8,226 bases of DNA from Candidatus Methanoperedens sp. (GTDB lineage Archaea; Halobacteriota; Methanosarcinia; Methanosarcinales; Methanoperedenaceae): NCBI GenBank assembly GCA_028679855.1, contig JAJRAP010000279.1, positions 1-8,226 of the forward strand, in the 5' to 3' direction. Both the position numbers and the translations under genes were made by a program. Each line of letters opens with the position of its first letter. Positions within the stretch are counted from its first letter, which is position 1. The notes under the pieces were generated by a model. The model saw only the letters and a program-made list of their open reading frames with translations, did not search any database and was not told the origin of the DNA. Of the stretch, positions 5,238 through 8,226 are shown in pieces.

Positions 5238-5295
5238 TTTTTCGAAAAAAAGTTGCATTTTTCCATATTTATAAAAACCAATTCAGCCGCTGCAT
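5238..5295. repeat. Orphan fragment of the CRISPR leader
   Basis: This 58-nt stretch copies the middle of the CRISPR leader at about 6872-6930. It begins with TTTTTCGAAAAA, a CG-shortened form of the leader palindrome TTTTTTCGCGAAAAAA. The 44 nt at 5252-5295 then match 6887-6930 with one difference, seen directly. No CRISPR repeat lies beside it; GTTTCAATC at 5307-5315 resembles the repeat start but sits on the wrong side for this leader orientation. It is the only recognisable content in the 207-bp gap between tfuA and the next gene. It is either a relic of a lost CRISPR locus or a short element that also occurs within leaders. Confidence 0.8.
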
Positions 5296-5420
5296 TCAGG
5301 AAAAGGTTTCAATCTTTCAACAAGCTCATCAAGCATATTCTCACCTCAAAGAACGCGAAGATCGCAAAGATTATTGCTGACAATAAGTCTTAAATTACCA
5401 GAAATCTTATAGCATATATA

Positions 5421-5720
5421 ATGTATAGTGAAGATTCAGTCTCAGAAATTACTGCTGATTTGCGCCATGTCATAGGCTTACCTGAGACTGTGCTTATCCA
5501 AAAAGGTTTATTATCCTTTATCGAAAAGGAAATCCGGCTTGCTGAAGCAGATATTGCTGACCTCATGGACAGGTATAACGTAGCTTCAAAAGAGGATTTA
5601 TATGAGGCGATCAAGTCTAAAAAGATATCAAGCCATCCTGCCTGGGAAGATTATATTATCTGGAAGAATAAGGAAAAATATGTCAATGACCTTAAAGTAC
5701 GCCTTGGCAGGTTTCCTTAG
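5421..5720 (+). CDS. Probable antitoxin partner of the TumE-like toxin
   Basis: A 99-residue acidic, mainly helical protein without signal peptide or membrane segment. I do not recognise a named domain. The C-terminal SSHPAWEDYIIWKNKEKYVNDLKVRL resembles small proteins encoded directly before TumE/DUF6516 toxins, recalled from family knowledge and not verified. Its stop codon is followed immediately by the ATG of the next gene, as expected for a co-translated toxin-antitoxin pair. No Shine-Dalgarno is seen before the ATG. A weak TATA-like CTTAAATTA at 5389-5397 is centred 28 nt upstream, which would fit a leaderless transcript. Antitoxin function is inferred from position and size only. Confidence 0.6.
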   Translation: MYSEDSVSEITADLRHVIGLPETVLIQKGLLSFIEKEIRLAEADIADLMDRYNVASKEDLYEAIKSKKISSHPAWEDYIIWKNKEKYVNDLKVRLGRFP

Positions 5721-6101
5721 ATGCTTATAACATATCGGATGCTTGAACAAATAACAAAGACCGAGTTTTCAGATATTATTAATAAAACTGCCTTGATTGG
5801 CGGAAAATCAGCACAGCCGAACAAGTTGAGGGTGTTTCTAATCGATGGAAGTTTCCTTGATGTCTGGTTGAGTGAAGAGAACGATTATTCTTTTCATTGG
5901 GAGCAGAGGGCAGTGCGTGGTTTGATACACCGATGGGACAATGCACCTGACCATCCTGATATCGAGTCTTTTCCGCATCATTTCCATGACGGCAAAGAAA
6001 ACAATATCCTGAGCAGCCAACTTAATAACGATATGATTGATGCATTCAAAGAGGTTCTAACATTTATAAGAGCTAAACTGAAAGATGTTCCAGAAAAATA
6101 A
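5721..6101 (+). CDS. TumE/DUF6516-family toxin-like protein
   Basis: A 126-residue protein with the features of the TumE (DUF6516) family: a beta-rich LRVFLIDGSFLDVWLS segment (about residues 37-52), YSFHWE (58-63), then LIHRWDNAPDHPDIESFPHH (70-89) with its conserved Trp-Asp-Asn-Ala-Pro and clustered histidines, and a helical tail. The family is classed as the toxin component of a toxin-antitoxin system; its biochemical target is not visible here. The ATG at 5721 directly abuts the stop of the upstream gene. An in-frame ATG at 5739 is a shorter alternative. The gene ends 23 bp before the repeated distal CRISPR flank and is read toward the array, opposite to the array's own transcription. Family assignment is fairly sure; toxicity is inferred. 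Confidence 0.72.
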   Translation: MLITYRMLEQITKTEFSDIINKTALIGGKSAQPNKLRVFLIDGSFLDVWLSEENDYSFHWEQRAVRGLIHRWDNAPDHPDIESFPHHFHDGKENNILSSQLNNDMIDAFKEVLTFIRAKLKDVPEK

Positions 6102-6124
6102 TCATCTCACTTTTCAAGGTTCAT

Positions 6125-6222
6125 TGTCAATCTTCTTCTCTGAATTGCGCTTTTCTTCAAACTGAAATGATTGAAGGCTCTAAGCTGTTCATTCCTCTAA
6201 AACGTGTCTGGTCTTTTCTCAC
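6125..6222. repeat. Distal CRISPR flank, copy 1
   Basis: This 98-nt stretch is nearly identical to 7826-7922; I see about six substitutions and one 1-nt indel. It starts TGTCAATCTTCTTCTC in both copies and ends in the degenerate CRISPR repeat. It lies at the leader-distal end of the array. Its presence at both loci means the whole CRISPR unit, not only the leader, was duplicated. No ORF is visible in it. Confidence 0.85.
6186..6222 (-). repeat. Degenerate terminal CRISPR repeat
   Basis: This 37-nt segment aligns without gaps to the CRISPR repeat at about 26 of 37 positions, including CTAAAACG in the middle and CAC at the end. It sits 73 nt from the first perfect repeat, inside the array's 72-81 nt period, and leaves a spacer-sized 36 nt between (6223-6258). 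That interval holds an inverted repeat TCCGAA/TTCGGA. Decay of the leader-distal repeat is common in CRISPR arrays and independently supports the leader being on the right. Confidence 0.75.
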
Positions 6223-6258
6223 AGTAAAGGTTGTTAATGTCCGAATTGTTTCGGATTT

Positions 6259-6744
6259 GTTTCAATCCCCTAAAACGGGTCAACTCCTTTTACACTGGAA
6301 CACAGGAATCCGTTTGACTCGAAAGAGGAGCAGTATATAGTTTCAATCCCCTAAAACGGGTCAACTCCTTTTACACCATTGCGGTGTGTGTGCATTGCAG
6401 ACAACTAATACCAATGTTTCAATCCCCTAAAACGGGTCAACTCCTTTTACACAGTTCGAAATTATGATGGTGGTAACATGAGACTAAATGTTTCAATCCC
6501 CTAAAACGGGTCAACTCCTTTTACACATGAATCCAGGCCCTATGGGGTGCAGCAGGCGCGAAAGTTTCAATCCCCTAAAACGGGTCAACTCCTTTTACAC
6601 TGAAGATTTCGTACCATTACCAATGTACGCATCCCGTTTCAATCCCCTAAAACGGGTCAACTCCTTTTACACCTTCTCTCGGTAGATCAGGAATTGGAAA
6701 ATTTAAAGTTTCAATCCCCTAAAACGGGTCAACTCCTTTTACAC
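6259..6744 (-). CRISPR. CRISPR array, 7 identical 37-nt repeats and 6 spacers
   Basis: Perfect repeats start at 6259, 6340, 6416, 6490, 6564, 6636 and 6708. Each is 37 nt, beginning GTTTCAATCCCCTAAAACGG and ending TCAACTCCTTTTACAC on the plus strand. The six spacers are unique, with lengths 44, 39, 37, 37, 35 and 35 from left to right. Read on the minus strand, the repeat ends in GGGGATTGAAAC, giving the usual AUUGAAAC crRNA 5' handle. Transcription is therefore leftward from the leader at 6745-6980, and the newest spacer is 6673-6707. Repeats of this length and ending are typical of subtype I-B and type III systems in methanogens, but no cas gene is present, so the subtype is inference. A degenerate repeat lies one unit beyond the left end. 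The plus-strand ORF through the array is an artefact of its repetition. Confidence 0.98.
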
Positions 6745-6820
6745 CCCGTGTCAGCGCATACGGGTTTTTGGAAAAGCATTTTAATGCCTTAATTTCCAGA
6801 TTGTAAGCCTTATGTACCTT

Positions 6821-6834
6821 TTTATAATATATAA
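6821..6834 (-). promoter_or_regulatory. TATA box for the pre-crRNA of the six-spacer array
   Basis: The minus strand reads TTATATATTATAAA, a strong archaeal TATA box, identical in the second leader. Transcription should start near 6804, about 60 nt before the first repeat. Another AT-rich candidate (TTTATATAAATA on the minus strand, near 6900-6912) lies further out but is not conserved in the second leader, so this one is preferred. Confidence 0.6.
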
Positions 6835-6853
6835 CGATTTCGGAAAAATAATG

Positions 6854-6980
6854 TTTGGCGATTCCCTCGATTTTTTCGCGAAAAAAGTTGCATTTTTCCA
6901 TATTTATATAAACCAATTCAGCCGCTGCATGCTGGCGATTGCCTCCCCCTGTTTTCGGGGGTATGGAGGGAATCGCCAAA
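6854..6980. repeat. Inverted-repeat block in the leader with long hairpin
   Basis: TTTGGCGATTCCCTC (6854-6868) and GAGGGAATCGCCAAA (6966-6980) are perfect 15-nt inverted repeats bounding 127 bp. Inside, TGGCGATT (6933-6940) and CCTCC (6942-6946) pair with AATCGCCA (6971-6978) and GGAGG (6965-6969), forming a 13-bp stem with one G-G mismatch and a further C/G-rich inner pairing. The palindrome TTTTTTCGCGAAAAAA is at 6871-6886. The block could be protein-binding sites of the leader or a small inverted-repeat element absorbed into it. Confidence 0.7.
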
Positions 6981-7065
6981 ATCTCTGTGTTTGATTTAAT
7001 CACCGCAGAGGAAGCAAAGAACACAATAAAACGCTGATACAACCATCTGCAATTGATTTTCTTTT

Positions 7066-7467
7066 CTATAATTTTAACCAGTTTTCAACTTCAATTTCAT
7101 CTAATCTTTCAAAATGATTAGGATTGTTTGTAACAAGAATGCATTTATTCACAAAAGCAACACTGGCAATCAAAATATCAAAATCTTCAATAATTTTCCC
7201 CTCACGCTTCAATTTTGATTTGAATTGCCCAAATGCCTTAGCTGAAGCATCATTATCCGAATATACAGTTAAATTTTTTTTGAATTTATCAATTCTTTCT
7301 AAATTTGCATTAACTTTTTTAGAATTATATGCTCCAAAATAAAGTTCAGCAAGAGTTGCATTCGATATTGAAATAGAATAAATACCGATTTCTTTTATTT
7401 TCTTTATTAATTTTTCTTCCCCGTTAATAAGGTATATGCAAATATTTGTATCCAATAAATATTTCAA
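7066..7467 (-). CDS. VapC-like PIN-domain ribonuclease toxin
   Basis: A 133-residue PIN-domain protein, the usual VapC size. It starts with KYLLDTNICIYLING, where D6 is the first metal ligand. E41 (ATLAELYFGA) and D95/D97 (IIEDFDILIASVA) give the next acidic sites, and TNNPNHF (114-120) closes the active centre in the usual form. PIN toxins cleave RNA, often tRNA or rRNA, when free of antitoxin; the target here is unknown. The start is TTG at 7467: the protein would lose its catalytic N-terminus with any later start, and the TTG overlaps the antitoxin stop as TTGA. The gene is AT-rich compared with the helicase and ycaO genes, suggesting separate acquisition. It lies between two copies of the CRISPR unit and is read in the same direction as both arrays. 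Confidence 0.92.
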   Translation of the reverse strand: MKYLLDTNICIYLINGEEKLIKKIKEIGIYSISISNATLAELYFGAYNSKKVNANLERIDKFKKNLTVYSDNDASAKAFGQFKSKLKREGKIIEDFDILIASVAFVNKCILVTNNPNHFERLDEIEVENWLKL

Positions 7468-7721
7468 AATATTTTCTCCGTTCTGTTAGTGGATTTTCTA
7501 CTGGAATAAATCTCTTTTATTTGATTTTCAATAGTCCTATTATCTTCCCATGTACCACATATTGACAAAAATTCCAGGGTTGCTTTTTCTTCTGAAGATT
7601 GATTTTCAATGATTTCAGACCTGAAAAAATGTATTATTTTAAGGATCTTTTCCTGAACTATCTCAGGCAGATCTCGTATTTCTTTCAAGATTTCTTCCTC
7701 CTGCTTTGTTTTGGTTTGCAT
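7464..7721 (-). CDS. VapB-like antitoxin
   Basis: An 85-residue protein directly before and overlapping the PIN toxin gene by 4 nt. Its N-terminal half is helical and charged (EEEILKEIRDLPEIVQEKIL), resembling the short DUF2281-like helix seen in some VapB antitoxins; I do not see a clear AbrB or ribbon-helix-helix motif. The C-terminal WEDNRTIENQIKEIYSSRKS followed by NRTEKIF matches the tail by which many antitoxins wrap around a PIN toxin. The ATG at 7721 has CAGGT about 5 nt upstream. The TTGA overlap implies that toxin translation depends on antitoxin translation. Antitoxin identity rests on arrangement and C-terminal pattern. Confidence 0.8.
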   Translation of the reverse strand: MQTKTKQEEEILKEIRDLPEIVQEKILKIIHFFRSEIIENQSSEEKATLEFLSICGTWEDNRTIENQIKEIYSSRKSTNRTEKIF

Positions 7722-7769
7722 ATAAACCTGTATTGTTTCTAAATTGAATTAAGTTTATGTAATGAAATG

Positions 7770-7777
7770 TATTTAAA
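7770..7777 (-). promoter_or_regulatory. TATA box of the vapBC-like operon
   Basis: The minus strand reads TTTAAATA preceded by GCC. The expected start near 7747 gives a leader of about 25 nt that includes CAGGT just before the antitoxin ATG. The pair probably has its own promoter, although transcripts from the mini-array upstream run in the same direction. Confidence 0.5.
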
Positions 7778-7825
7778 GGCGTGTGTTCTTTGGTACATGA
7801 TGGTTGCACGTGGTTTCTGATTGAG

Positions 7826-7922
7826 TGTCAATCTTCTTCTCTAAATTGTGCTTTTCTTCAAACTGAAATGATTGAAGGCATAAGCTGTTCATTCATCTAA
7901 AAGGGGTCTGGTCTTTTCTCAC
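7826..7922. repeat. Distal CRISPR flank, copy 2, ending in a degenerate repeat
   Basis: Near-identical to 6125-6222. The last 37 nt (7886-7922) form a degenerate CRISPR repeat like that at 6186-6222, with its own changes (TCATC for TCCTC, AAGGGG for AACGTG). No ORF is visible. It lies about 50 bp upstream of the vapBC-like promoter. Confidence 0.85.
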
Positions 7923-7997
7923 ACACTCAGTCCAATAATTGCGGCATTGATTTTTCCCGTGTTTCAATCCCCTAAATCGGGTCAACTCCTTTTACAC
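7886..7997 (-). CRISPR. Mini-CRISPR locus: degenerate repeat, one spacer, one repeat
   Basis: The repeat at 7961-7997 equals the main array's repeat except for one base (CTAAATCGG in place of CTAAAACGG). To its left is a 38-nt spacer-sized segment (7923-7960), then the degenerate terminal repeat (7886-7922), 75 nt from the good repeat. To its right is a full second leader. The arrangement is that of the main array reduced to a single spacer. Because of this shared architecture I call it a CRISPR locus although automatic tools would skip one repeat. Transcription would be leftward, toward vapBC. Confidence 0.8.
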
Positions 7998-8226
7998 CCC
8001 GGTGTCAGCGCATACGGGTTTTTGGAAAAGCATTTTAATGCCTCAATTTCCAAATTGCAATCCTTATGTACCTTTTTATAATATATAACGATTTCGGAAA
8101 AATAATGTTTGGCGATTGCCTCGATTTTTTCGCGAAAAAAGTTTGATTATATTTTGTGAATAAAAACCAATTCAGCCTCTGTTTGCTGGCGATTGCCTCC
8201 CCCTGTTTTCGGCGGTCTGGAGGGAA
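7998..8226 (-). promoter_or_regulatory. Second CRISPR leader copy, cut by the window end
   Basis: It matches 6745-6972 closely, with five substitutions and one inserted G in the first 145 nt. It keeps the CCCG/CGGG hairpin, GCATTTTAATGC, the TATA box, the palindrome TTTTTTCGCGAAAAAA (8125-8140) and two TGGCGATT motifs (8110 and 8187). A 24-nt block after the palindrome (8141-8164) has the same length as in copy 1 but quite different sequence. The window ends inside the right arm of the terminal hairpin. Confidence 0.88.
8075..8088 (-). promoter_or_regulatory. TATA box for the mini-array transcript
   Basis: Identical to the box at 6821-6834 (TTATATATTATAAA on the minus strand). The predicted start is near 8058, about 60 nt before the repeat at 7961-7997. 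Confidence 0.55.

Follow-up and report, generated by a model that had tools for sequence, protein, structure and literature searches.

The window considered here (the whole stretch of DNA analysed, 8,226 bases) is contig C181 of genome G000, a metagenome-assembled genome of Candidatus Methanoperedens sp. that amounts to 1.68 Mb in 320 contigs and is 77% complete. It carries a clustered regularly interspaced short palindromic repeats (CRISPR) locus made up of two homologous array-leader units, a further leader stump joined to a piece of cas2, and two predicted toxin-antitoxin (TA) modules, one of TumE type and one VapBC, which occupy the two gaps. Along the contig, the order is leader stump with cas2 stump, TumE module, array 1, leader 1, VapBC, mini-array and leader 2 (Table 1).

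Two array-leader units in direct orientation

The units lie at 6124-6981 and 7825-8226 and point in the same direction. The second is cut at the contig end, and as this is also where the window ends, no alignment past 8226 is possible. Each unit runs in the order distal flank, degenerate repeat, spacer or spacers, repeat or repeats, and leader, with vapBC standing between the two. Identical, regularly spaced direct repeats, unique spacers, and a leader that is conserved among relatives and sits beside the newest repeat identify the locus as a CRISPR array. Guides are read from the minus strand, on which the repeat ends in ATTGAAAC, the usual handle of CRISPR RNA (crRNA).

The distal parts of the units (6124-6223 and 7825-7923) are identical in 92 of 100 alignment columns, the array repeats at 36 of 37 positions, and the leaders (6745-6973 and 7998-8226) in 207 of 230 columns, with a longest exact stretch of 56 bases. 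The alignment bears out the direct orientation, the matching order and the position of vapBC that were given in the initial annotation. It also agrees with the proposal made there that the complete unit was duplicated and not the leader alone: both ends of the units are homologous, and the two leaders of the window pair in a tree of whole leaders with a support of 97 (leaders on contigs C43 and C80 of a relative, G012, pair with 94, and other groupings are weaker). Two figures need to be revised, however. Divergence between the units is 8-10%, indels included, rather than a few percent, and when both arrays are counted in the same way they hold seven spacers and one, not six and one.

Table 1. 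Positions of the CRISPR, cas and TA features in the window.
Feature	Positions	Strand	Remarks
Third leader copy, stump	5238..5295	-	Leader tail alone, no array adjoining; 95% identical to leader 1 (2.6e-19)
cas2 fragment	5288..5344	-	In frame (GENMLDELVERLKPFPEC); fused to leader stump
Presumed antitoxin partner of TumE	5421..5720	+	99-aa open reading frame (ORF), no family match over cut-off; role from position
Predicted TumE-family toxin	5721..6101	+	PF20126 66.1 bits (cut-off 23.4); NF045777 28 bits (below cut-off 90)
Distal flank, unit 1	6124..6186	.	Homologous to 7825-7886
Degenerate terminal repeat, unit 1	6187..6223	-	Closer to relatives' repeat variants than to own repeat
Array 1	6224..6744	-	7 identical 37-nt repeats and 7 unlike spacers of 35-44 nt
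16S-like spacer of array 1	6527..6563	-	Guide antisense to archaeal 16S rRNA
Leader 1	6745..6981	-	Conserved block with predicted minus-strand promoter; GGCGATTNCCTC motif three times (two direct, one inverted)
Predicted vapC, PIN-domain toxin	7066..7467	-	PF01850 54 bits (cut-off 23.6); best NCBIfam NF047863 132 bits (cut-off 140)
Presumed vapB antitoxin	7464..7721	-	Overlaps vapC by 4 bases; no family match over cut-off; role from position
Distal flank, unit 2	7825..7886	.	Homologous to unit 1 flank
Degenerate terminal repeat, unit 2	7887..7923	-	
Lone spacer of mini-array	7924..7960	-	37 nt
Repeat of mini-array	7961..7997	-	1 substitution relative to array-1 repeat
Leader 2	7998..8226	-	Truncated by contig end within its inverted repeat

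Against the repeats of two contigs of relatives, G022 C27 and G012 C48, the terminal repeats score 42 (unit 1) and 38 (unit 2), compared with 34 and 30 against the repeat of their own array; not one of 500 shuffles reaches either score of unit 1. The worn repeats thus look as if an older version of the repeat had been preserved in them. Such terminal repeats are also found at G022 C27, in a mild form at G022 C56, in the array at the end of G012 C48 and in a mini-array of G020, although for G012 C43 the alignment gave no terminal repeat. A second, still older degenerate repeat within the distal flank was considered and is too weak to be claimed, as the score was reached by 53 of 500 shuffles in unit 1 (C27 variant) and by 6 of 500 in unit 2 (C48 variant).

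In the alignment of leaders, 23 of the 28 columns from 86 to 113 are unanimous, as against 25 of 85 in columns 1-85. The promoter block is identical in leaders 1 and 2, and the conserved block contains on its minus strand an element that we take to be TATA-like. In combination with the ATTGAAAC end of the repeat on the same strand, this predicts leftward transcription, which from leader 2 would pass through the mini-array in the direction of vapB. Such leftward transcription of the arrays from the conserved promoter of the leader probably persists. In the leader tail (6854-6981) and its homologues, the three copies of GGCGATTNCCTC could fold as a long hairpin that is kept in most leaders of the family, making it a possible candidate for a protein-binding or cruciform site. 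The idea that the tail is a miniature inverted-repeat transposable element was rejected, as searches of the genus and the order, in which a limited number of candidates per genome was scored, gave no copy off CRISPR loci, and the copy in G030 adjoins cas6.

A leader stump fused to a fragment of cas2

The leader stump begins 25 bases past the stop codon of tfuA. The cas2 fragment has 89% DNA identity to L028:675-730, which lies inside the cas2 gene of G012 (PF09827, 75 bits). In G012 C48 and G022 C27 the order array-leader-cas2-cas1 is intact, and the stump therefore looks like the remnant of a unit that has suffered a deletion between leader and cas2. As for a Cas1-Cas2 pair linked to this repeat, the contig has the cas2 fragment alone. 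The initial annotation mentions neither the stump with its cas2 fossil, nor the cas genes that relatives have in place of the TA modules, nor the 16S-like spacer. A short sequence resembling a dispersed repeat (CACC..CA.AG.A.GC.AAG, by eye) is present beside the leader-TA junctions of the window, at 5341-5370 and 7002-7030, and at L033:3291-3345 near the G030 leader; it may mark joins between modules.

Neighbours of the leader family in related genomes

A search for the leader across 185 genomes of the order (E<=1e-8, with up to 4 candidates scored per genome) located it in at least 10 places in five genomes, all of one genus, with three of the places in G000, which puts the likeness of the window's leaders beyond chance. 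Among 60 relatives, weaker matches (E ~1e-7 to 4e-6) were found in G046, G052 and G054, which belong to other families; that in G052 concerns the repeat alone. The outer neighbour can be read for nine of ten leader copies, the tenth running off its contig. In six of the nine it consists of cas genes: cas2-cas1, with or without a reverse transcriptase (RT)/primase-polymerase, a CARF protein, or cas6. Three of these are in G012 (cas2-cas1-RT/primase-polymerase; TIGR02710 CARF protein, then cas6; TIGR02619/APE2256 CRISPR protein), two in G022 (cas2-cas1; TIGR02710 CARF protein, then cas6) and one in G030 (cas6). Next to the stump of G000 (one of nine) the cas2 piece comes first and the TumE module second, and in the remaining two cases, leader 1 of G000 and the leader of G020, a TA-type module takes this place.

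The G020 leader is followed by a nucleotidyltransferase gene (PF01909/PF18765) with a 136-aa partner that has no family match, a degenerate repeat, a spacer, a repeat and a broken cas6, which is in two pieces in different frames. The one-spacer mini-array at L032:7328-7440 is leaderless and lies between a nucleotidyltransferase-type TA pair and the broken cas6, a shape nearer to creA than that of the mini-array in the window. On contig C68 of G054 (L034), which is from another family, there are two tandem array-leader units, and the gap contains pieces of cas2 and cas1 together with two small ORFs in which no TA gene was recognised. The layout of L034 is similar to that of the window, with cas1-cas2 and cas6 pieces and small ORFs (one C39-peptidase-like) between the units and a PIN gene at the left.

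Tandem arrangements may exist within the genus as well. The array at the right end of G012 C48 and the array that ends C80 have an identical repeat, and the two contigs would fit a tandem order, array-leader-[cas2-cas1-RT]-array-leader-[CARF-cas6], though no overlap of 15 bases or more that would join them was found. The arrays within G012, and likewise those within G022, differ from each other in repeat variant, while the units of the window share one, which suggests that the duplication in the window is comparatively recent.

Comparison with related genomes thus recovered the leader family, usually with cas genes in place of TA modules; a search of 30 other genomes of the genus gave no match to the distal flank of unit 1. 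With respect to the site itself, TfuA was found in 28 of 31 genomes. The DNA past tfuA was compared for 11 of the 27 others that have it, and in none of the 11 does it match that of the window. This implies that in the lineage of G000 the CRISPR locus was inserted at this site or relocated to it. In the nearest two genomes, G017 and G013, tfuA is followed by other small genes and then by ribosomal proteins S7 and S12 (G017 by profile scan, G013 by likeness).

Predicted toxin-antitoxin modules in the gaps

Both modules are predictions from sequence. The PIN-domain gene would form an operon with the small overlapping gene upstream of it, as is usual for type II TA modules of the VapBC kind, and the TumE-domain gene likewise has a small partner gene upstream. 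By eye, vapB has its own TATA-like element, which lies some 50 bases upstream. When the DNA of the TumE module and vapBC was compared with the loci of relatives (L027-L048), no match was obtained at 1e-3. PIN genes are common in G000 (11 matches in 1.68 Mb, 10 of them above cut-off), and two of these 10 are on C181 and C24, the two contigs known to carry CRISPR, which make up 1.1% of the bases (Poisson ~0.006, a post hoc estimate made by hand). Near the CRISPR of C24 there is also a HepT/MntA pair besides the PIN gene. This shows that TA genes cluster at the CRISPR loci of G000. It does not show the cause of the clustering, which is explained equally well by the clustering of genes in defence islands.

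Cas machinery of the genome and the leader family

An alignment of the cognate (A3-type) Cas6 gave no match in G000, and neither did PF10040 or the Cas10 palm model PF22335, bearing in mind that 77% of the genome is represented; G012, G020 and G030 are likewise without a match to the Cas10 model. All that was found in G000 of the RT/primase-polymerase is a weak 27-bit match in its TPR part. Contig C24 of G000 (L049) encodes Cas6b (PF17262 142 bits, PF17955 115 bits), Cas1, Cas2 and Cas4 next to a different repeat, and its Cas1 is the sole one found in the genome.

The leader family is labelled type III because Cas10 and RAMP proteins flank the array of G022 C27. In G012, an RT-TPR-primase-polymerase protein adjoins cas1-cas2 (NF040561 366 bits), forming an archaeal RT-CAPP module. 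The proteins of this kind in G012 C48 (L028:1847-4645) and G022 C56 (L031:123-2960) are 932-945 aa long, combine a group II-like RT with TPR and primase-polymerase (AEP) parts, and are 75% identical.

Spacers and their sequence matches

The 16S-like spacer of array 1 agrees at 34 of 37 positions with Haladaptatus (L144:1803), corresponding to positions 308-344 of the 16S gene (L144:1496-2966 is a full SSU_rRNA_archaea gene), and at 31 of 37 with Halomicrobium. In the same Haladaptatus and Halomicrobium loci the other seven spacers attain 18-24 matches at best. Array 1 hit 24 plasmid records, and among the matches listed 20 of 20 were at this spacer; for the mini-array there was no match to plasmids. 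The 3' flank of the 16S target (acttta) agrees with the anti-tag GTTTCA at three of six positions, thus tag protection is not evident.

Under an armed type III effector, such an antisense 16S spacer is likely to be harmful to the cell. Where PMC5576922 deals with host-derived spacers, it describes antisense ones as negatively selected under active type III-B interference. That the spacer is tolerated here fits an unarmed array.

A scan of viral contigs covered six of the eight spacers (all except 6224-6258 and 6673-6707), each with one 20-base stretch and the mini-array spacer with a 20-base and a 19-base stretch, and returned no credible target. One viral contig, L093, has an exact 19-mer of the mini-array spacer, but with 23 of 37 positions matching overall it was taken as a chance hit. 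The whole arrays do not match phages, and with up to 3 mismatches allowed the mini-array spacer has no other place in the 31 genomes of the genus.

A decaying memory or working arrays?

With slightly better than even confidence, we read the locus as a duplicated array-plus-leader locus beside a fragment of cas2, with predicted TA modules at the sites that hold cas genes in relatives, and as a memory that is likely decaying and no longer gains or uses spacers. In such a history, a CRISPR unit would have entered the site past tfuA, or relocated to it, together with its adaptation genes; the array-leader unit would then have been duplicated, the adaptation genes would have been lost through deletion, and TA modules may have settled into the gaps. 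Lacking a Cas1-Cas2-RT of its own, the second array could have stayed or shrunk at one spacer beside an ordinary worn terminal repeat. Maturation of crRNA would need another Cas6 that accepts the repeat, for example the Cas6b of C24. The suggestion in the initial annotation that the mini-array may be inactive for adaptation fits the fragmentary cas2 and the missing cognate Cas6 and RT, although the force of the latter point is limited by the completeness of the genome.

Several observations weigh against decay. The repeats of array 1 do not differ from one another and neither leader shows a change in the promoter block, unlike what would be expected after long neglect. As the genome is incomplete and in 320 contigs, the cognate Cas6 and an effector may be encoded in the part that was not recovered, and since G012 has Cas6 and RT yet no Cas10 match, the absence of a match to the Cas10 model is weak evidence. 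In addition, the Cas6b, Cas1, Cas2 and Cas4 of C24 might serve the arrays of the window in trans. The 16S-like spacer is likely self-targeting, but the host's own 16S was not found, and in the 2.0 Mb searched of the relative G015 (nominally 3.2 Mb; 100 x 20 kb) there was no match at up to 9-10 mismatches. It is not shown that leader 2 has decayed and so left its array short: of the columns on which the other seven leaders agree, leader 2 deviates in 7 of 115 and leader 1 in 2 of 110, but the cas2-adjacent leaders deviate in 9 of 117 (G012 C48) and 3 of 111 (G022 C27). Finally, a tree from 80 columns of the leader tail, in which the stump and G030 are also included, does not pair the two leaders of the window, placing leader 1 with the stump (83) and leader 2 with G020 (67). 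Several rounds of duplication, or sequence exchange among the leaders, would produce such trees.

The main rival explanation is that the two arrays are orphans that still work, with the proteins they need supplied in trans from C24 (Cas6b and Cas1-Cas2-Cas4) or from a part of the genome that was not assembled, and that the mini-array is young or has recently contracted. Apart from the presence of these proteins on C24, the incompleteness of the genome, the identical repeats of array 1 and the conserved promoter block, this is favoured by G012 and G022, which likewise spread their leaders and cas modules over several contigs. However, cas2 is reduced to a fragment in the window, the leader-linked Cas6 and RT and also Cas10 were not found in G000, the repeat of C24 is unlike that of the window, and the antisense 16S-like spacer is likely toxic under an armed type III system. 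We regard service in trans as possible but less likely than decay. Hardly any weight attaches to an assembly artefact, with the second unit as a chimeric copy of the first. The second unit does lie at the contig end, inside the repeated leader, but the copies differ by ~8-10% including indels and have different spacers and neighbours, and two relatives carry three and two copies of the leader.

A further explanation, compatible with a decaying memory, is that the TA modules act as locks: recombination that deletes a unit would also remove the TA genes, the surviving toxin would punish the cell, and arrays without cas genes of their own would be kept. Three gaps that could be read in G000 and G020 each have a different TA-type module (5421-6101; 7066-7721; L032:7537-8495), the 56-bp exact match between the leaders is a substrate for recombination, and TA cassettes that act in this way are discussed for the Vibrio superintegron in the relevant part of PMC11023631. 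By contrast, the fourth gap, that of G054 with its weak leader match, has pieces of cas2 and cas1 and two small ORFs without a recognised TA gene; TA genes are common in G000 at large; those of C24 (PIN, HepT/MntA) fit plain defence-island clustering; three gaps in two genomes are a small, post hoc sample; and deletion variants were not seen. We consider locking unlikely on balance. The deletion of vapBC by recombination between the leaders that was suggested in the initial annotation is possible in principle, given the exact match, but none was seen. Quite unlikely, in our view, is the fuller scenario of a memory bank that outlives its machinery through TA locks in each gap and keeps an antisense 16S guide plausibly captured from RNA by an RT-primase-polymerase adaptation complex of the kind that sister species retain.

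There remains the proposal that the mini-array was kept for another purpose, namely as an RNA antitoxin like creA or CrePA, with guide and effector repressing vapBC or another promoter. Two-repeat creA genes, as they are characterized in sections of PMC8501985, have no leader and two degenerate repeats, with nucleotides 1-5 and 7-11 of the guide matching the toxin promoter, and the idea is extended to a protein toxin as CrePA in what PMC12737573 reports of it. The mini-array resembles these in that its single spacer is flanked by a degenerate repeat on one side and a near-perfect one on the other and that its predicted transcription is toward the adjoining toxin operon, and G020 has a leaderless degenerate repeat-spacer-repeat adjoining a TA-type pair. 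One array-1 guide (spacer 6224-6258) matches nine of ten seed positions at 7823-7789, upstream of vapB, but this is at the level of chance (one place in the window against 0.49 expected) and 13 of 35 positions match overall. On the other side, the mini-array does have a leader (7998-8226) and a repeat that is intact at 36 of 37 positions, and worn terminal repeats are common in the array family of the window. Positions 1-5 and 7-11 of its own guide have no full match anywhere in the window, the vapB promoter included; the best matches, at nine of ten, number four (0.49 expected at even composition, the guide being A-rich) and all lie within genes. The G020 mini-array spacer had no seed place in 17 kb. 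A regulatory role of this kind is thus very improbable, and the best reading of the mini-array is an ordinary array that is short of spacers.

Comparison with known systems

In its repeats, spacers, leader, degenerate last repeat and a contig without an intact cas gene, the locus is similar to orphan CRISPR arrays, which have no cas operon beside them. It differs from them in that the unit is present twice along with a third leader stump, the gaps contain TA modules, and a cas2 fossil is attached. With CRISPR adaptation by RT-primase-polymerase (CAPP) proteins, as covered in portions of PMC8211822 and PMC5513706, it is connected through the same leader and repeat family, which precedes cas2-cas1 and an RT-TPR-primase-polymerase in G012. 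G022 has a similar protein beside another such array, and the Cas10 and RAMP proteins at C27 suggest type III, whereas the window keeps only a cas2 fragment, with no effector or RT found. CreTA and CrePA share with the window a single-spacer crRNA-like unit that adjoins a toxin, but here the unit has a leader, a near-perfect repeat, a presumed protein antitoxin and no full seed complementarity to the toxin promoter. The TA cassettes of the Vibrio superintegron are, according to the segment of PMC11023631 devoted to them, TA genes within an array-like structure that could be lost by recombination; what the window shows is the arrangement.

In our judgement, the locus bears on how arrays without cas genes of their own survive and on why TA modules gather at CRISPR loci. 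It is a compact natural case that combines direct-repeat units, TA modules in the gaps and the fossil of an adaptation module with relatives that have cas genes in those gaps. If it is true that TA modules lock arrays, the pattern of deletions in such loci would tell. The antisense 16S-like spacer, for its part, is a clue to the choice between RNA and DNA as the source of spacers for the RT-primase-polymerase module, and also hints at whether interference was already off when the spacer was captured.

Genes to the left of the locus

A profile scan of the part of the window to the left of the CRISPR locus identified a DinG-like helicase, a TRAM protein, a GXGXG-like protein (with a match below the cut-off), YcaO and TfuA.

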